Shown here one piece after another: positions 7,265-13,801 of a stretch of 22,544 nucleotides of DNA. The notes beneath the pieces were generated by a model. It saw nothing but the letters and a program-made list of their open reading frames with translations, searched no databases and was not told the origin of the DNA. The DNA comes from a virus. The translations under genes and the position numbers were made by a program. The stretch is taken from the IMG/VR virus record IMGVR_UViG_3300003886_000069, positions 1-22,544 of that record; one strand, 5' to 3'. Numbering within the stretch: the first letter of the stretch is position 1; each line of letters opens with the position of its first letter.

Positions 7265-7704
7265 TGGCCGGAGAAACAATCAATCAACCGAGTGCCGCGT
7301 GGTACACGATACAAGCGGCCGCATCCACGCTTGATGCTGCCGTATCAGCCGGAGCAAGAACTGCAATTAATGCAACGGCACTTAGCGTTAATGAGCGCAA
7401 ATACCCGCTACTTGACTTTCGGCTTGATATGTCTGTCGGCACCCCTGTAGTGAATCAAACGGTAGACTTATACCGTAGACCGAAAATGGACGGGACAAAT
7501 GAGGCCCCAGCGGTAACTGCAACTTATCTACATAAATTTGTCGATAGCTTTGTCCTTAACGCTCTAGCTGGCCCCCAGTATTATTACATTGATAGCATTC
7601 CAAACCCTGATCCAAATGCTACTTATTATCTGGTAAATCAATCCGGTGCAACGCTAACAATAGCTCTTGCAGTAGCGTCACGAGGCTGGAATACCGCAGT
7701 CTGA
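7264..7704 (+). CDS. Beta-rich virion-type protein (146 aa)
   Basis: TAATG coupling with the previous gene sets the start at 7264. The protein has KYPLLDFRLDMSVGTP, then TVDLYRRPKMDGTNEAP and KFVDSFVLN, and ends with YYLVNQSGATLTI. I recall this arrangement (DF..A.......P....T.DLY.RP...DGTN..P.......Y.G.FV) in structural gene clusters of other phages, where it is annotated hypothetical. It is likely a beta-sandwich virion protein. Its TGA overlaps the next ATG (7704). Confidence 0.55.
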   Translation: MAGETINQPSAAWYTIQAAASTLDAAVSAGARTAINATALSVNERKYPLLDFRLDMSVGTPVVNQTVDLYRRPKMDGTNEAPAVTATYLHKFVDSFVLNALAGPQYYYIDSIPNPDPNATYYLVNQSGATLTIALAVASRGWNTAV

Positions 7705-8531
7705 TGGGCCAGGTAATAGTTGACAATATTGATTTACTCGAACCTAATCTTCGGATACCGGGTAAGCTTCCTATTGGGCATGTAAAAATAAATTGGGAAC
7801 ACCCGTTAGCTGACAAACTTGTATCTTTTGTTTTGTGTAGCACTGGGGTCGACATTGTAGGGAGCAGAAAAGGCACTATGGGTGGCGCGGTATCAGTTGG
7901 GAATATCGGCGTTAATAGAGCGGGGGTTTTTTCAACAAATGGTGATTTATGGTCTTTCCCAAGTACCGGTAAAACAGAACTTCTGGATGAAATTACTATT
8001 ATGGCTGGGGTTTCTATACCAGCAACTACATCAAGTGTAAAACTTGTATCAAAAGCAACAAGTGATGCATCAGCTAATCCGTATCGGCTTTCCTTTGATG
8101 CCCCGAGTAATGGCCTTTATTTCATTCGAGCTGGTACAGGTTATGGGGCATTTAAGCCAAGTTCTCTGTTAATTAGTCCCGGGGATACTGGAATTCTTGG
8201 GGTATCAACCAACGGGTCGACATGGACGAATCCATCTTTCTTTTTTAATGGGGCCTTCACGGGTGGAACGCAGCTTTTTACTGGGGCTAATGTCTCTGTC
8301 ACAGGAACTTCAGCGCCGCTAAAAATAGGTCAACACGACTCATCGGCTGGCCAGGATTATAAAATGACTTTTGTCGCAATATGGGGGCGGCGATTTGCTG
8401 AAAGAGATTTCAATGAATTTTATAGAGATATTTGCCAGGCTTTAATACCAAGTCTAGGCGCAGGATTAAGATTTATCGGAGCGAAGTCGTTAGCAGGGCC
8501 GTCTCTGTTCATGAGTGCATACGGCGCATGA
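7704..8531 (+). CDS. LamG/concanavalin-like lectin-fold virion protein
   Basis: This 275-aa protein begins with about 25 residues that could attach it to the virion, then NWEHPLADKLVSFVLCSTG, a phrase common at the start of phage LamG-type (jelly-roll) domains. Strands such as FSTNGDLWSFPSTG, EITIMAGVSIPATTSSVKLVSKA, SLLISPGDTGILGVSTNGS and LKIGQHDSSAGQDYKMTFVAIWGRRFA fill the typical LamG core. The terminal FNEFYRDICQALIP matches the usual C-terminal helix after the domain (F..FY.NPWQ.F.P). Such domains bind glycans, so a role in host-surface contact is a reasonable inference. Confidence 0.65.
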   Translation: MGQVIVDNIDLLEPNLRIPGKLPIGHVKINWEHPLADKLVSFVLCSTGVDIVGSRKGTMGGAVSVGNIGVNRAGVFSTNGDLWSFPSTGKTELLDEITIMAGVSIPATTSSVKLVSKATSDASANPYRLSFDAPSNGLYFIRAGTGYGAFKPSSLLISPGDTGILGVSTNGSTWTNPSFFFNGAFTGGTQLFTGANVSVTGTSAPLKIGQHDSSAGQDYKMTFVAIWGRRFAERDFNEFYRDICQALIPSLGAGLRFIGAKSLAGPSLFMSAYGA

Positions 8532-8677
8532 TGAAGGAAGTTAAATGCAGGTGTGGAAGAATGTTTTATATCGATACTGAAAAAGGGAATCCGGAGCAGG
8601 CTATATGTAAGCCGTGCGTTAAATTAATCAACCGGCGAATAGCCGAGAGGGAAAAGAATGTACAAGTCAATTCATGA
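8528..8677 (+). CDS. Tiny zinc-ribbon-like protein (49 aa)
   Basis: Two consecutive ATGs (8528, 8531) overlap the stop of the lectin-fold gene, and there is no separate ribosome site, so translation is probably coupled. The product has a CRCG knuckle near residues 6-9 and an ICKPC knuckle about 17 residues later. This Cys pairing fits a small zinc ribbon, with a basic C-terminal helix (INRRIAEREK). Mu Com is a known small zinc-binding regulator of similar size, but I see no specific similarity, so nucleic-acid binding is only a guess. Confidence 0.5.
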   Translation: MMKEVKCRCGRMFYIDTEKGNPEQAICKPCVKLINRRIAEREKNVQVNS

Positions 8678-8870
8678 GGTACCAAAAGCATGGAGGTCGC
8701 TCGACGGCTGGCCGCTATCGCTTGACCAGATCAACGAGATTGTTGGCCAGGCAAATGAGAGCAAGGCGGTTTTCGCTGTTGCGCTGGGTGAGGCAAAAGG
8801 AAGATTTAAAGAAACTCATACGGTCAAAGATGGCCTGTGGGTAGTGGGGGTGAGTAATGTTACTGAATAG
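8658..8870 (+). CDS. Small protein resembling ChaB-type phage proteins (70 aa)
   Basis: The ATG at 8658 follows GAGAGGGAAAAGA and overlaps the zinc-ribbon gene by 20 nt. MYKSIHEVPKAWR at the start, a middle helix (LSLDQINEIVGQANESKAVF) and EAKGRFKETHTVKDGLWV at the end recall small phage proteins annotated as ChaB-like (YKS...VP near the N-terminus, then F...H.V.DG.WV). The function of those is not established. It overlaps the start of the next virion gene at 8857. The family link is tentative. Confidence 0.5.
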   Translation: MYKSIHEVPKAWRSLDGWPLSLDQINEIVGQANESKAVFAVALGEAKGRFKETHTVKDGLWVVGVSNVTE

Positions 8871-9765
8871 TGCAGGTGTATCGGCCGCTGATCCGGTGCT
8901 AAAAGGGCTTGGGATAGACATGGTGTTCGGTGCATCCTCTATGGACGTTGCACTTATTAACGACGCAAACATTGATACCCTAACAGGTTTTCCAGGGACT
9001 AACTCAGTTAAAGCGTCTCTTTCACCAGCATCGACTGTTTTAATTTCAGGCTCTGCGGGTACATTTGACGACACTACAAATCAATACGGCATCGGTTCGA
9101 CTACCGGGCTAACCGCCGGTGATTATATTTACATGAGCCATGCCGCTATCACAGACGGTGAGTACGAGATTGCAACGGTAGTTAACGGGACCGATGTAAC
9201 CTTAGTTGGCACTCCTGGCGATACCGGCGGCAACCTAACAGCAATAGCGTTCCAGGTCGCATGGAATTACGGTACAACTACCGCGACGGCTCCGATCACA
9301 TCATCTGCCGGGGGCGCACAGAACTTTGTAAAATTCGATGCTCAGGATTCCCTAACGAACAAAACTCAACTAGAGAGTACATTTTATGTACGTGATGCTC
9401 CGGCGGGATCGGCGTATATTGAGCTTGAAGGAGGGAATTACACAGGGCAGACAGCGATAGATTTTTTACTCACACTGGTTATCCTGACTGGCTGGGCAAA
9501 TAACGGCGGGGTATCACATTTACAGCTCGCCAGTCACTCTGTACAGGCCGTAAATAACTTTACCTGGCAAACAGGTGGTGGTACTGGAGAAGTTACCCTG
9601 GTGACTGCGGAAGGAGGCCTTGCAGTAGCTGCTGGGGACGGGGCTAAGTACGGTAGGTTGTTATTAAAGTCAAAAGCAGGGGCAGCGACGACTATCGGGA
9701 TAGACTTTGATATCACGATAAACTCGACTGGCCCAGTCCTAACGCTAAGTTTATATGGCGCCTAA
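8857..9765 (+). CDS. Beta-rich virion protein, unknown function (302 aa)
   Basis: The ATG at 8857 lies inside the previous gene after GGGGGTGAG. The protein is Gly/Ala/Thr-rich with low Cys and Lys. It starts with a segment containing GIDMVFGASSMDVALIND (small-residue strands), a domain with GLTAGDYIYMSHAAITDGEYEIATV that looks like an OB/Ig-type barrel, and a C-terminal beta domain with YIELEGGNYTG and LTLVILTGWANNGG. Composition and placement indicate a structural protein of the tail or fibre system. I know no specific family. It overlaps the next gene by one base. Confidence 0.55.
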   Translation: MLLNSAGVSAADPVLKGLGIDMVFGASSMDVALINDANIDTLTGFPGTNSVKASLSPASTVLISGSAGTFDDTTNQYGIGSTTGLTAGDYIYMSHAAITDGEYEIATVVNGTDVTLVGTPGDTGGNLTAIAFQVAWNYGTTTATAPITSSAGGAQNFVKFDAQDSLTNKTQLESTFYVRDAPAGSAYIELEGGNYTGQTAIDFLLTLVILTGWANNGGVSHLQLASHSVQAVNNFTWQTGGGTGEVTLVTAEGGLAVAAGDGAKYGRLLLKSKAGAATTIGIDFDITINSTGPVLTLSLYGA

Positions 9766-10223
9766 TGACGATATTTAATCGTAATGGATTCGCCTCGCTC
9801 GTCATCGGACTGCAATCTGATGAGGGGTTGGGCATTCTTGACACTGATTATATTGAAGACTACAACGGAGTTGATGCTCAGGTTACGATCTATCACATAT
9901 CTACTACAACGTCGTGGCCTGTTGTTATGTCGTTAATCCCAACAAATTTACTTAGAGGCCAGATAGCATTGGCCGGACTACCTGATGGTAATTATGATGT
10001 TAGAGGAAGGGTAAAAGATGTATATGGTAACTATTCGATAATTTCTGCTTTCCTTAACCCAAACGGGAGTGAGGATATTTTAATAATAGGGTTCACAATA
10101 ATCAGTGGCGCTATTGTTGGGTGGATAACGGGGGCAATAAACGCCTATCCAAGGATTAGTGGTAGTGTTGTCACTCGCCCGAGAATCATAGGGATTATTA
10201 AAACCTACTCAGGGAACCTATAG
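9765..10223 (+). CDS. Fibronectin/Ig-like beta-sandwich protein (152 aa)
   Basis: The ATG at 9765 overlaps the previous stop (TAATG). Residues 1-100 look like a beta-sandwich: NGFASLVIGLQ, VDAQVTIYHIS, LLRGQIALAGLPDGNYDVRGRVKDVYGNY, where the LPDGNYDVR strand-turn-strand resembles fibronectin-type domains. A C-terminal hydrophobic/Gly segment (DILIIGFTIISGAIVGWITG) could be buried strands or a short membrane-like helix. It probably takes part in the same virion assembly as its neighbours; no defined function. Confidence 0.5.
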   Translation: MTIFNRNGFASLVIGLQSDEGLGILDTDYIEDYNGVDAQVTIYHISTTTSWPVVMSLIPTNLLRGQIALAGLPDGNYDVRGRVKDVYGNYSIISAFLNPNGSEDILIIGFTIISGAIVGWITGAINAYPRISGSVVTRPRIIGIIKTYSGNL

Positions 10224-10525
10224 TGCCGTCACTAAATAAAAACTCAGACAACATAGTTGAGGTAGATAAATTAACAGATCAACTAGGCGGCCAGTTAATA
10301 TCAGGAGCGACTGTAACTGTAACTGTAAAAGATACAGTGGGTAATGATTTATCTGGAGCAACCTGGTCGGTAGCCATGCCTGAAGTATCAGCAGGATTAT
10401 ATCGCGGTAACCTACCTGATACACTGGTACTGGACGGAAAGAAAATTGTTATAGCAACATTCGTAGCAGACGCAGGGGCAGCCCTACACAGAGAATGGTG
10501 TGTCGAATACATTGTGGTATGTTAG
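10223..10525 (+). CDS. Ig-like small virion protein (100 aa)
   Basis: GTG start at 10223, overlapping the upstream TAG, with AGGGA 8-10 nt before it. The pattern LNKNSDNIVEVDKLTD, then GATVTVTVKDTVGNDLSGA, GLYRGNLPDTLVLDGKK and a final W-C-V-E-Y strand matches a small Ig-like domain I recall in phage tail and fibre gene clusters (N.SDNVVEVDGL...G......VT.T..D..G..V.GA). These are likely structural linkers or baseplate-type domains. It is the last of the first surface-protein block before the lysis genes. Confidence 0.55.
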   Translation: MPSLNKNSDNIVEVDKLTDQLGGQLISGATVTVTVKDTVGNDLSGATWSVAMPEVSAGLYRGNLPDTLVLDGKKIVIATFVADAGAALHREWCVEYIVVC

Positions 10526-10542
10526 ACGGTGGTTTGTAACCA

Positions 10543-10761
10543 ATGGAATATGACAGATTCATTGATGAGATGGACAAGTTGCAGTTGCGACTCTTTTTAC
10601 GGCAATCATACGTCTATAACGTATCTCTACAGGATGAACGTGCAAGGTATGAAAAGATACTGACAGTTTTATATGACCGATGGCTAGAAGGGGATATGAC
10701 AGATAAAGACTGGATGCCACTAACAAGTTTATTTAAGTTTTTTGAGAAGATTGACTTATGA
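10543..10761 (+). CDS. Small helical protein, unknown function (72 aa)
   Basis: The ATG at 10543 follows ACGGTGG. The product is rich in aromatic and charged residues (RLFLRQSYVYNVSLQDERARYEKI contains the main helix, then VLYDRWLEGDM). No membrane segment or known motif is visible. The ATGA overlap with the next gene (10758-10761) suggests that the two are translated together and act in one process, probably near lysis. Confidence 0.5.
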   Translation: MEYDRFIDEMDKLQLRLFLRQSYVYNVSLQDERARYEKILTVLYDRWLEGDMTDKDWMPLTSLFKFFEKIDL

Positions 10762-11129
10762 CAGACAAAGAATTCCAGGACAGACTATTGAATGAGCTTA
10801 AGAGTATGGGTATAGGGCAGAGAAAATGGCACTCAGAGAAAGGAATCCCGATAGCAATTGTACTGATGTTTGCTGCGCAGCTAGTTTTAGCTGGGTGGTA
10901 CAGTAGTTCGGTTGCCAGCGATGTAAGGGGGAACTCAAAAGATATAGTTGAGATAAAAAAGACGAACCTTACCGGGAAAGATGCTAAATTATTGAGGCGC
11001 AGCATAGATCAAAACTCAAAAGACATTAACGAGACTAACGAACTGGTCAGGGATAACGGAAAAGCATTATACCGGCTGCAACGAACAATAGATCAATACA
11101 TAGGGACGCTAAATGAGAACAAAAGATAA
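10758..11129 (+). CDS. Membrane protein with periplasmic coiled coil (holin- or spanin-like candidate)
   Basis: This 123-aa protein has a basic cytoplasmic N-terminus (about 29 residues, RKWHSEKG), one transmembrane helix at about 30-48 (IPIAIVLMFAAQLVLAGW), and a long charged helical tail (VRGNSKDIVEIKKT, RRSIDQNSKDINE). It lies directly upstream of, and overlaps, the endolysin gene, where holins and inner-membrane spanins are encoded. One membrane span with a coiled-coil periplasmic tail fits an i-spanin topology. Phage membrane proteins of the KWHSKHGIPLA type are often only called hypothetical or holin, so the role is open. Confidence 0.5.
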   Translation: MTDKEFQDRLLNELKSMGIGQRKWHSEKGIPIAIVLMFAAQLVLAGWYSSSVASDVRGNSKDIVEIKKTNLTGKDAKLLRRSIDQNSKDINETNELVRDNGKALYRLQRTIDQYIGTLNENKR

Positions 11130-11463
11130 ATCCGTCAGCCTTGAGGGGATGAACCCGGCAATGTGGCCTATGGCTATGCGCGTCAATAGTGTTTACATAG
11201 AAGAGTTAGGTTATGAACTTACTATAACGTCAGGGAGCGAGGCATCAACAATACATAAAGTTGGTAGCTTTCATTACCCAGAGAACACACCTGATAAAAT
11301 GGGTAGAGCAACTGACTGTCGTACAAGATCAAGCAAATATACTACAACGCAATTACAGGGTAAAAGTAGAGACTCTATGCACAAAAAAGTCCAAGCTGCT
11401 GCCGGTAAGTATTTTCAAGTCATCGACGAAGGTGACCATTTCCACATCGAACTTGATAAATAG
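11113..11463 (+). CDS. M15-family zinc peptidase, probable endolysin
   Basis: M15 peptidases cut peptide cross-links of cell-wall peptidoglycan. The 116-aa product has ELTITSGSEAS, then GSFHY with His54, GRATDCR with Asp68, and DHFHIEL with His109/His111 at the C-terminus. This gives the His, Asp and His zinc-ligand order of the family (compare S-x-H-x-x-G-x-A-x-D and H-x-H). The gap between His54 and Asp68 is 14 residues rather than the usual 7 because of an inserted PENTPDKM-type loop. There is no signal peptide, so release needs a holin, for which the overlapping upstream membrane gene is the best candidate. D-Ala-D-Ala carboxypeptidase-like activity is an alternative to L-Ala-D-Glu cleavage. 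Confidence 0.75.
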   Translation: MRTKDKSVSLEGMNPAMWPMAMRVNSVYIEELGYELTITSGSEASTIHKVGSFHYPENTPDKMGRATDCRTRSSKYTTTQLQGKSRDSMHKKVQAAAGKYFQVIDEGDHFHIELDK

Positions 11464-11469
11464 GGGCCA

Positions 11470-11973
11470 TTATACTCCATGATTAATGTGGTACATATAT
11501 TTAATCTCAGCAGATTTTCTTGCGCACACTGCATCCCATTTTTTGGTAAAGAGGCCAAGGTGAAGGCGTTTGCTAGAAGCGTTTATATATGCCATCCATT
11601 TATTGCTGGCTTTATGCCATACAACACCCGTAATACCAGAAGTGTTAGTTCGAAGCATCGATCTATTCATTTGGTTCTGCTGGTGTGTGGCTTCGCACAA
11701 ATTATTAAATCTGTTATCATCTTTAGCGTGGTTTTCATGGTCTATTTGGTTTTCAGGCCATTCGCCTGTCATATACAACCAAACAAGCCTGTGGGCAAGA
11801 TAAAGCTTATAATTAACCCTGATTGTTATATACCCATCAGTGGTTTTGTATCCAGCAACATCGCCAATTTGTACCCCATTATTACTAGCAAGCCAAGTAA
11901 ACAAACCAGTTTCAGGGTCATATTGAAGGAGCTTTTTAAGCTGTTCCGGTGTGATATAATTCAACGTAGACAT
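11470..11973 (-). CDS. HNH homing endonuclease with AP2 DNA-binding domain
   Basis: The only minus-strand gene. ATG at 11973, with AAGGAG close upstream on that strand. The 167-aa product has an N-terminal helix (TPEQLKKLLQYDPETGLFTW), an HNH core with His61 (LAHRLVW), Asp78-His79 (QIDHENH), Asn87 (DDNRFNNL) and Asn91, and a C-terminal AP2-like domain from about 113 (SGITGVVWHKASNKWMAYI, then HLGLFTKKWDAVCARK). HNH_3 plus AP2 is a standard free-standing homing endonuclease of phages; it nicks or cuts phage DNA to spread its own gene. The usual NLR after the HNH has Cys93 in place of Arg. It converges with the endolysin (7 nt between stops) and lies antisense to late transcription. Confidence 0.9.
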   Translation of the reverse strand: MSTLNYITPEQLKKLLQYDPETGLFTWLASNNGVQIGDVAGYKTTDGYITIRVNYKLYLAHRLVWLYMTGEWPENQIDHENHAKDDNRFNNLCEATHQQNQMNRSMLRTNTSGITGVVWHKASNKWMAYINASSKRLHLGLFTKKWDAVCARKSAEIKYMYHINHGV

Positions 11974-12007
11974 TTTGCTCTCCTTAATAGAGTTAAGTGC
12001 TTAGAGG

Positions 12008-12031
12008 CGGCCTGCATCAACAGGCCGTTTT
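12008..12031 (+). terminator. Strong rho-independent terminator
   Basis: CGGCCTG (12008-12014) and CAGGCCG (12021-12027) form a perfect 7-bp, GC-rich stem around CATCAA, followed by TTTT at 12028-12031. It ends + strand transcription from the lysis genes after reading through the antisense HNH gene. No T-run exists on the minus side, so it acts in one direction. On the minus strand the same hairpin lies in the upstream region of the HNH gene. Confidence 0.8.
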
Positions 12032-12062: not shown

Positions 12063-12824
12063 ATGGGAAAAACAATTAAGACGTTTGGAATAGTAGGATT
12101 GGTGGCACTTGTGCTTGTTATCGCAGGCTGCAACTCCATGGGGACTGCATATAATACTGATGGGTCGATAGCCGAGAAAATACCACAGGACGTCGGTGTG
12201 GCTAGAGCCGTGGCCGAAGCAATCAAGAATTGCCCTGCGGTTAATCCGGCTTTATTTAAACCAGCTCAGTTTACACGTGATTGCAGTGCAGAAACTACGG
12301 CAGCAGGCAGTGCAGAGTGCTACAGAGCGATGCAGACAAACAGCACAAATAATGTAATTGGGCGTTTAGTCTCGACATTAAAAACTACAGAGTCATGTCA
12401 GTCTGCTGCCGCGAAAGTTGGTGTTGAATATATGCGTAAGGAAATGGTGCAGGCTAAAGAGATTAGGCGCGGCTCTACATCAGGGATATTAGGACTTACA
12501 TCTTACGGTATATCGAAAGAATTGGTCACTGGGTTTGTGGCAGGCACAGCAGCAGGCGATACGCGTATAGGGTCGGTTAATGTCAGCGGATCAAGTAATG
12601 GCGGAGCGGCCGGCGAAGGTACGGGCGGCAGAGGGACTACAACAATGGATACGAATATCGGTGCAGGGAACTCAATTAATACTCTAAGCGGTGACGCACA
12701 GATAAACCGTGCAGAGAAGCAGGTACTGGCCCCAGTCACAGGTGGCGGAGACTCAGCACCGGTACTTGACGATAGTGGTGATGGATCTGGAAATCAGGCG
12801 GGTATAAACCCATTTGGACAATAA
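12063..12824 (+). CDS. Phage-encoded lipoprotein
   Basis: The ATG at 12063 is 5 nt after AGGTGA; a GTG at 12054 would place that site inside the gene. Residues 1-23 form a lipoprotein signal: basic N-terminus (MGKTIKT), hydrophobic core (GIVGLVALVLV) and lipobox IAGC with acylated Cys23. Asn24 follows, not Asp, so sorting to the outer membrane is expected in Gram-negatives. Residues about 40-160 are helical with four more Cys and a conserved look (CPAVNPALFK, ECYRAMQ). The last 90 residues are Gly/Ser/Ala-rich and probably disordered. I know no exact family; outer-membrane spanin, superinfection exclusion or a surface role are options. Total 253 aa, long for an o-spanin. Confidence 0.75.
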   Translation: MGKTIKTFGIVGLVALVLVIAGCNSMGTAYNTDGSIAEKIPQDVGVARAVAEAIKNCPAVNPALFKPAQFTRDCSAETTAAGSAECYRAMQTNSTNNVIGRLVSTLKTTESCQSAAAKVGVEYMRKEMVQAKEIRRGSTSGILGLTSYGISKELVTGFVAGTAAGDTRIGSVNVSGSSNGGAAGEGTGGRGTTTMDTNIGAGNSINTLSGDAQINRAEKQVLAPVTGGGDSAPVLDDSGDGSGNQAGINPFGQ

Positions 12825-12840
12825 TACAGGAGCTTAAACT

Positions 12841-12987
12841 ATGAACACAATACAGAAGATACTTGAGACAGCAAAAAAATACATCAAGACGACAATTGTA
12901 GCGGCAGTCACTATCGGTACAGCAATTGTCGTATGGCTAAATGACCTGCTACCGGTCTTGAAAGGGCTATTGTCCTCGATTAAATAA
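12841..12987 (+). CDS. Small single-pass membrane protein (48 aa)
   Basis: A good ribosome site (ACAGGAGC) precedes the ATG at 12841. The product has a basic amphipathic N-terminus (KILETAKKYIKTT), one transmembrane stretch at about 18-36 (IVAAVTIGTAIVVWLNDLL) and a short basic tail. Its TAA overlaps the ATG of the DUF1353 gene (TAATG), so it is part of this operon. Size and topology fit a pinholin-like or accessory membrane protein, or a membrane partner of the neighbouring lipoprotein. No family recognised. Confidence 0.65.
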   Translation: MNTIQKILETAKKYIKTTIVAAVTIGTAIVVWLNDLLPVLKGLLSSIK

Positions 12988-13355
12988 TGTTTCTTACTGA
13001 CTTCAACGATAACCCCAAAGATGGCGGGAAAGGCGGCACGCTAGAAGAGCCGCTTGTGTACTATAGCGAGCGGTATGATACTACAATCACCGTTCCTGTG
13101 GGGTATTATTCTAACTACGGAACAGTCCCCTGGTGGGTTCCCCCTGGGGTTCTTCCGAGAGGCGCAGAATTTAGGCCCGCTTATGTTGTCCATGATTACT
13201 TATATGATACTCCAGATATCTTCCCTAAATACAAAGCAGATGTAATATTGCGAGATGCCATGCAAGAATTGAAACCTAACAGGCGTATACGTTCGTGGAT
13301 AGCTTGGGCCGGAGTTAGTTTAAATATCAAACGCTGGTTACGGTGGAAGAAATGA
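12987..13355 (+). CDS. DUF1353 family protein (122 aa)
   Basis: The ATG at 12987 overlaps the previous stop. The DUF1353 signature is clear: YDTTITVPVGYYSNYGTVPWW, then AYVVHDYLYD, a KADVILRDAMQEL helix and a C-terminal basic/aromatic tail (IKRWLRWKK). The family is common in phages, often near lysis or tail genes, and its biochemical role is not established. The conserved His-Asp pair and following Asp suggest a metal or catalytic site. The tail is rich in Trp, Arg and Lys and could touch membrane. It overlaps the nuclease gene by 4 nt (ATGA). Confidence 0.8.
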   Translation: MFLTDFNDNPKDGGKGGTLEEPLVYYSERYDTTITVPVGYYSNYGTVPWWVPPGVLPRGAEFRPAYVVHDYLYDTPDIFPKYKADVILRDAMQELKPNRRIRSWIAWAGVSLNIKRWLRWKK

Positions 13356-13801
13356 AACGCTGGCCTAGGATACTTGACTGGGTACTTATTTCTATCACAG
13401 CTTTTATCCTGATATTTGTTACGTTGCTGAACGATGCGAAGGCTTACGGGCCTTACAGTGCTGAATATATATTCAATTATGACGGCGATACGATAACCCT
13501 GGCCATTGAAATATGGCCCGATCTTGTGCAAGTAAAACGAATTAGGCTTGCTGGAGTTGATGCACCTGAGATCAAGGGTAAGTGTGAAATAGAAAAGGTA
13601 TTAGCAATTGATGCTAAGGCATATGTTGCGGATACTTTAAAGTCGGCTAAGTTAATAGTCGTTACAGTTTCAAAACTCGGTAAATACGGCAGGCCGATAT
13701 CAGCAGTTATTGCCGATGGAGTTGATTTATCGACTGGCCTTATTGAAATGGGGTTAGGGCGTGAATATGATGGTGGTAAACGTGAAAGTTGGTGTAATTA
13801 G
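13352..13801 (+). CDS. Exported staphylococcal-nuclease-like (thermonuclease) enzyme
   Basis: The ATG at 13352 has GGTGGAAG just upstream and overlaps the DUF1353 stop. Residues 1-31 form a signal peptide: MKRW, then a hydrophobic core (WVLISITAFILIFVTLL), then an AKA cleavage motif at 29-31; an uncleaved anchor is possible. The SNase fold follows: YDGDTITL (43-50), RIRLAGVDAPEI with Arg65, Asp70 and Glu73, and GKYGRPI with Arg114. These match the catalytic Arg35/Asp40/Glu43/Arg87 set of the S. aureus enzyme. Two Cys (78 and near the C-terminus) could form a disulfide. It should cut DNA or RNA in the periplasm with Ca2+. The SNase core is compact, and all key residues are present. Confidence 0.85.
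   Translation: MKRWPRILDWVLISITAFILIFVTLLNDAKAYGPYSAEYIFNYDGDTITLAIEIWPDLVQVKRIRLAGVDAPEIKGKCEIEKVLAIDAKAYVADTLKSAKLIVVTVSKLGKYGRPISAVIADGVDLSTGLIEMGLGREYDGGKRESWCN

Follow-up and report, generated by a model that had tools for sequence, protein, structure and literature searches.

What would a phage gain from encoding, one behind the other, a lipoprotein, a minute membrane protein, a DUF1353 protein and a nuclease with a signal peptide? The question is raised by positions 12063-13801 of the viral fragment IMGVR_UViG_3300003886_000069 (22,544 nucleotides, 22.5 kb; hereafter the window), in which all four open reading frames are present (Table 1).

A four-gene cassette in the lysis region

The tight coupling that a first-pass annotation had seen in these genes is borne out. 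Sixteen bases separate the lipoprotein gene from that of the 48-aa membrane protein, and the last three genes overlap, through TAATG where the 48-aa gene meets DUF1353 and through ATGA at 13352 where DUF1353 meets the SNase gene. The product of the first gene 3′ of the cassette is a virion protein (head closure in PHROG), which suggests that the cassette is expressed late. A promoter scan returned sites no more numerous than in shuffled sequence, and an Rfam search gave no match.

Table 1 Features in and before the four-gene cassette, with window coordinates
Feature	Position	Strand	Basis
Single-pass membrane protein, coiled-coil-like tail, 123 aa; holin or inner-spanin candidate	10758..11129	+	54% identity to L020:2348-2722, same position
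Endolysin candidate, M15-like, 116 aa, no signal peptide	11113..11463	+	71% identity to L020:2719-3069
HNH homing-type endonuclease (HNH_3 + AP2)	11470..11973	-	Pfam HNH_3 56.4 bits; PHROG_99 E 3.7e-68
Stable RNA hairpin, terminator-like	12004..12031	+	-17.2 kcal/mol, z -4.3
Lipoprotein, 253 aa	12063..12824	+	ATG start, SD AGGTGA, lipobox VIAG/CN
48-aa single-pass membrane protein, holin-like or accessory	12841..12987	+	65% identity to L003:6725-6871
DUF1353 protein, predicted cytoplasmic phospholipase A2	12987..13355	+	Pfam PF07087
SNase-type DNase, predicted to be exported, Sec signal peptide predicted at residues 1-31	13352..13801	+	Pfam SNase, ATG start

Near the cassette lies a candidate endolysin gene, called from its position and from a motif recognized by eye (HxxxxxxD ... 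HxH); the protein has no match in Pfam or PHROG. The membrane protein encoded just before it reaches an Rz-like spanin profile of PHROG only at E 0.045. This protein and the 48-aa protein are the two holin candidates, neither of which matches a holin family in Pfam or PHROG, and within the window we identified no confirmed holin and no complete spanin pair.

Between the endolysin candidate and the lipoprotein gene sits a minus-strand HNH_3/AP2 endonuclease gene, preceded in its own direction by the hairpin and unmentioned in the first-pass annotation. It is missing from the matching junction of a related phage locus, L020, and is probably a later insertion. The annotation had placed a strong terminator ahead of the cassette; the hairpin itself is genuine, but its stem is not followed by a clean U-run and it was not accepted in a terminator scan.

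In L020 the endolysin and lipoprotein genes lie just a few bases apart. Because the endolysin gene directly precedes the lipoprotein gene there, and the window arrangement is only split by the HNH insertion, the cassette is part of the lysis region, and on gene order the four genes are an extension of it. The earlier view that they are not simply the lysis cassette is therefore unsupported, given also that many phages carry DUF1353 near lysis genes and that its product is probably a phospholipase A2, as described below. The window resembles a classical Gram-negative lysis cassette (holin, endolysin, Rz/Rz1) in its endolysin neighbourhood, its membrane proteins, its lipoprotein and its probable late expression. 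It differs in adding a predicted phospholipase and a predicted exported DNase, and in having holin and spanins as candidates only.

Three genes shared with other phages

Exactly one IMG/VR contig carries a close relative of the window lipoprotein, and the annotated phage collection holds no close relative either of this protein or of the window DUF1353 protein. The contig is 44 kb long, and the phage it comes from encodes a DNA polymerase of its own; the part of it studied here, L003, encodes the lipoprotein, the 48-aa protein and DUF1353 in the same order as the window, at 69%, 65% and 49% identity, and its last three genes are joined by the same kind of stop-start overlaps. Elsewhere in the 12.7 kb around this block the only matches to the window are two frames antisense to the lipoprotein gene, so the three genes have moved as a block between unrelated backgrounds.

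L020 shares with the window the putative endolysin (71%), the membrane protein preceding it (54%) and a further gene upstream (39%). The endolysin is followed there by a diverged lipoprotein, a 58-aa ORF, a 40-aa relative of the 48-aa protein (L020:4039-4161), a DUF1353 protein (30%) and a PD-(D/E)XK-like nuclease. The conserved neighbourhood that the first-pass annotation had suggested looking for in other phages thus exists: the first three genes keep their order in L003 and, with greater divergence, in L020. The four genes are also co-conserved in the sense that the fourth slot of the relatives is again taken by an exported nuclease.

In comparison with L003, the ends of the lipoprotein gene, the 48-aa gene and the DUF1353 gene have dN/dS values well below 1, which marks all three as real genes. 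The lipoprotein combines a conserved N-terminus, a divergent centre and a conserved C-terminus rich in Gly, Ser and Thr. Its C-terminal 102 codons encode 97% identical amino acids in L003 (dN 0.018 vs dS 0.45), compared with 35% for the central 89 codons. At the DNA level the centre (12237-12515) is 44% identical to L003, vs 90% in the C-terminal third. This pattern would fit a hypervariable or recombined middle flanked by conserved ends. The protein has no match in Pfam, PHROG or NCBIfam, and none to known exclusion families (Cor and Llp type) or to spanins.

A predicted exported nuclease in an exchangeable slot

The window nuclease matches Pfam SNase (PF00565) at 33.6 bits (cut-off 21). Alignment to staphylococcal nuclease recovers its catalytic residues, DGDT, Arg63, Asp70, Glu73 and Arg114 (ATG numbering), so that the first-pass annotation was right to describe them as intact and to name Glu73 and Arg114. 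Its 31-residue leader, MKRWPRILDWVLISITAFILIFVTLLNDAKA, contains a long hydrophobic core and ends in an AxA site (AKA). Judged by reading the sequence, as were all signal peptides here, the nuclease is very probably exported; this agrees with the earlier proposal and with the exported nucleases in the fourth slot of the relatives.

The enzyme shares with staphylococcal nuclease (thermonuclease) its SNase fold family, its catalytic residues and a secreted form, predicted in our case, and differs from it in being phage-encoded within a lysis-linked operon. SNase matches in the annotated phage collection are mainly cyanophage enzymes, and those checked have no evident leaders. The nearest phage SNases by sequence (cyanophage PHROG_452, L004-L013) are unlike the window protein in having no evident signal peptide. 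The same holds for the SNase of cyanophage P-RSM6 (L018 3004-3459), whose gene lies directly before that of the terminase large subunit.

Where the window has an SNase, L003 and L020 encode an unrelated PD-(D/E)XK-like fold. The L003 protein, 134 aa long with a leader, belongs to a family with no match in Pfam, PHROG or NCBIfam. An AlphaFold model of this family from 49 sequences (pLDDT 96.1) has a core of helix, three strands, helix and strand, which is PD-(D/E)XK topology. The top PDB match of the model is FANCM/FAAP24, of the ERCC4-type nuclease fold (prob 0.90, E 0.067, not significant); XPF-ERCC1 and MUS81-EME1 follow, also with the PD-(D/E)XK fold and again with no significant E-value, and a PDB search by sequence gave chance matches only. 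Residues E47, D57, E66 and K72 are invariant in the family, and two cysteines are conserved in 164 of 165 exported homologues. A simple leader rule picks out 137 of 163 members, and a leader is visible by reading in most of the others.

The family matches 188 viral and 455 bacterial contigs; of the top 80 bacterial matches, those assigned to a named organism all belong to diderm groups. Its phage members often adjoin CI-type repressors or integrases, with S24-family matches accounting for 11 of 156 neighbours at 71 loci; in Dulem virus 31 and NrS-2 the homologue lies next to a CI-type repressor. Bacterial homologues are single genes among housekeeping genes. These neighbourhoods point to a general exported nuclease that is not specific to lysis. 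The Dulem virus 31 record (L014, PP511318.1) is classed as Microviridae, but it is 35.8 kb long with a CI repressor and an exonuclease, and its taxonomy looks wrong.

The leader of the window SNase gives local alignment scores of 47 against the L003 nuclease leader and 49 against that of L020, vs a maximum of 36 and a mean of 21 against 140 other leaders of the PD-(D/E)XK family, all of these being short, hydrophobic sequences. The L003 and L020 leaders score just 22 against each other, and such scores arise in about 8% of random leader pairs within the family, close relatives included. Since the highest scores of the SNase leader are those with L003 and L020, the comparison suggests that the leader was retained while the mature nuclease domain was exchanged, in either direction.

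DUF1353 as a probable phospholipase A2

The third protein matches DUF1353 (PF07087) at 54.6 bits (cut-off 22.5) and has no signal peptide. The founding member of the family, TtaP, is a biochemically demonstrated phospholipase A2 that acts through a His/Asp dyad and an Asp adjoining the His (H70, D71 and D85), and other DUF1353 proteins have been proposed as phospholipases too (PMC11525133). The window protein has H69, D70 and D85 at the matching positions. Among 50 aligned phage DUF1353 proteins (that of the window and 49 relatives), only H69, D70, Y73 and D85 (window numbering) are invariant, apart from the start. Its AlphaFold model (pLDDT 86.7) has as top PDB fold match the phospholipase A2 8k1w, at a level that is not significant (E 1.5, prob 0.44), and a PDB search by sequence found chance matches only. 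On its conserved residues, the protein is a probable phospholipase A2.

In PHROG_1158, and in many phage records of GenBank (for example L182 and L186), DUF1353 proteins carry the label "tail assembly chaperone" or "tail fiber assembly protein". We considered and rejected the chaperone label, which is probably wrong because DUF1353 adjoins lysis genes and its family includes a demonstrated phospholipase A2.

TtaP and the window protein have in common PF07087, their length class, the His-Asp...Asp residues, the missing signal peptide and a gene context with a phage-type muramidase. They differ in that TtaP is encoded in a bacterial toxin islet, and the window protein in a phage lysis region, alongside the lipoprotein, the small membrane protein and the predicted exported nuclease. 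The muramidase TtsA and the phospholipase TtaP of the Salmonella toxin islet (PMC11525133) resemble the endolysin-DUF1353 pair of phages, and by this analogy may be a captured lysis pair.

Several annotated phages place DUF1353 beside lysis genes. The order is endolysin-holin-(hypothetical)-Rz-Rz1-DUF1353 in IME207, endolysin-holin-spanin-DUF1353 in Sf11 and autolysin...DUF1353-holin in FNU4, and Carin1, DMCA and JD-Fnp3 encode an amidase or M15 protein two or three genes away; four other annotated phage DUF1353 records have no annotated lysis gene nearby. In metagenomic phages, lysis-family genes make up at least 20 of 104 DUF1353 neighbours vs none of 47 distant genes (Fisher p 3e-4), in Pfam tallies that count families and not independent events. 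DUF1353 and small lipoproteins adjoin endolysins in L069, L002 and L100. L002 also encodes, at 7573-10644, a portal-like protein of 1023 aa in which reading by eye suggested an insertion of intein/LAGLIDADG type.

An exported nuclease occurs near DUF1353 in the unrelated phages L003, L020, L069 and L249, and at a distance from it in L038 and L100. L069 encodes a lipoprotein, DUF1353, an exported PD-(D/E)XK protein and a lysozyme; L249 encodes a holin candidate, a lysozyme, one further protein, DUF1353 and an exported SNase. Direct adjacency of the two is a minority arrangement, present at 1 of 80 viral DUF1353 loci in one set. Bacteria carry DUF1353 in 31 of 398 and 12 of 297 genomes of two sets; none of the loci fetched from these genomes has an adjacent exported nuclease (0 of 40 bacterial loci, with flanks of only about 1.5 kb).

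Discussion

Gene order and predicted cell compartments suggest a division of labour across the envelope, and we give about even credence to a late extension of the lysis region, in which a phospholipase disrupts membranes after holin triggering and a DNase exported beforehand cuts DNA outside the cytoplasm. The lipoprotein would be targeted to the outer membrane and the 48-aa protein inserted into the inner one, and the DUF1353 phospholipase A2, having no signal peptide, would wait in the cytoplasm as the endolysin does. The nuclease would already have been sent to the periplasm via Sec, and the inner membrane would thereby separate it from replicating phage DNA. Once a holin opened the inner membrane, endolysin and phospholipase would reach the envelope. 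The phospholipase would hydrolyse membrane phospholipids, helping or replacing spanin-type disruption of the outer membrane, and the nuclease, on meeting host DNA and unpackaged DNA where the envelope is breached, would cut it and so ease virion release. What the sequence itself shows is which genes these are, their catalytic residues and order, their conservation together, the exchange of the nuclease and the setting among lysis genes; from this we infer the export, the activities of the enzymes, the timing and the purpose of the DNA cutting. A search of literature mostly from outside the subscription journals found no direct precedent for phage lysis cassettes that include a phospholipase, nor for a phage periplasmic nuclease serving exclusion.

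Several findings count against such a role in lysis: an exported nuclease rarely adjoins DUF1353, the PD-(D/E)XK family lies mostly outside lysis regions, the fold match of DUF1353 to a phospholipase A2 is not significant, the holin and spanin pair are unconfirmed, and deletion of TtaP causes no envelope phenotype (PMC11525133). The leading rival is superinfection exclusion, put forward in the first-pass annotation as a periplasmic barrier, with the lipoprotein, perhaps in an envelope altered by the phospholipase, hindering adsorption or entry of further phages and the periplasmic nuclease cutting their incoming DNA. The leader with its AxA site is in keeping with this, the conserved cysteine pair of the PD-(D/E)XK homologues would be compatible with a periplasmic disulphide, and the divergent lipoprotein centre would be in line with a partner-specific surface. 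That a nuclease can cut DNA during injection is proven by SNIPE (PMC13190303), an inner-membrane protein of bacteria that combines DUF4041 with a GIY-YIG domain on the cytoplasmic side. Like SNIPE, the window nuclease would be located in the envelope and able to act on DNA crossing the membrane; unlike SNIPE, it is an SNase (PD-(D/E)XK-like in the relatives), predicted to be periplasmic, and Pfam and PHROG searches found neither DUF4041 nor GIY-YIG domains in any of the four window proteins. Because the alternative nuclease is common beside repressors in temperate phages, exclusion keeps real weight. We nevertheless consider it rather unlikely here, since the cassette is flanked by endolysin and virion genes, which is a late position and one where exclusion would bring least benefit, DUF1353 is a lysis-neighbourhood gene and the lipoprotein matches no known exclusion family. 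Genome position and DUF1353 neighbourhoods thus make lysis-linked breakdown the likelier of the two, although release and exclusion are not mutually exclusive.

A plainer lysis set can also be imagined, with the lipoprotein as outer spanin or signal, the 48-aa protein as holin or antiholin, DUF1353 as membrane disrupter and the nuclease as a passenger with no part in release. The inner-spanin-like coiled-coil protein encoded before the endolysin, with its weak PHROG spanin match, would suit this set, as would the three loci that pair DUF1353 with small lipoproteins beside endolysins. Outer spanins are typically short and Pro-rich, however, unlike a Gly/Ser-rich lipoprotein of 253 aa, and a slot that stays filled by two different nuclease folds argues against a neutral passenger; we regard this explanation as improbable. 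Least credible of all is a scavenging nuclease that degrades extracellular or host DNA and feeds the nucleotides to the phage or infected cell. The solitary bacterial homologues of the alternative nuclease among housekeeping genes are compatible with nutrient use, but scavenging leaves the link to phospholipase and endolysin unexplained, and a late-infected cell close to lysis would gain little from it.

Returning to the extended lysis region, that relatives keep three genes and swap the nuclease suggests that membrane breakage and DNA cutting outside the cytoplasm matter to these phages. More generally, and tentatively, some phages of Gram-negative bacteria may end infection with an extended release system, in which holin, endolysin and spanins are joined by a phospholipase A2 and a periplasm-stored DNase, the DNase slot being modular, with unrelated folds exchanged behind a retained leader. 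In that case the muramidase-phospholipase pair of the Salmonella islet would probably also derive from the endolysin-DUF1353 pairing of phages. The comparison also points to a widespread exported PD-(D/E)XK-like family that has no name, and it offers a clean test of whether phage periplasmic DNases serve release or exclusion. If the proposal is true, phage DUF1353 proteins would have a function, and enzymatic phospholipid hydrolysis would join the known ways in which phages break the envelope.
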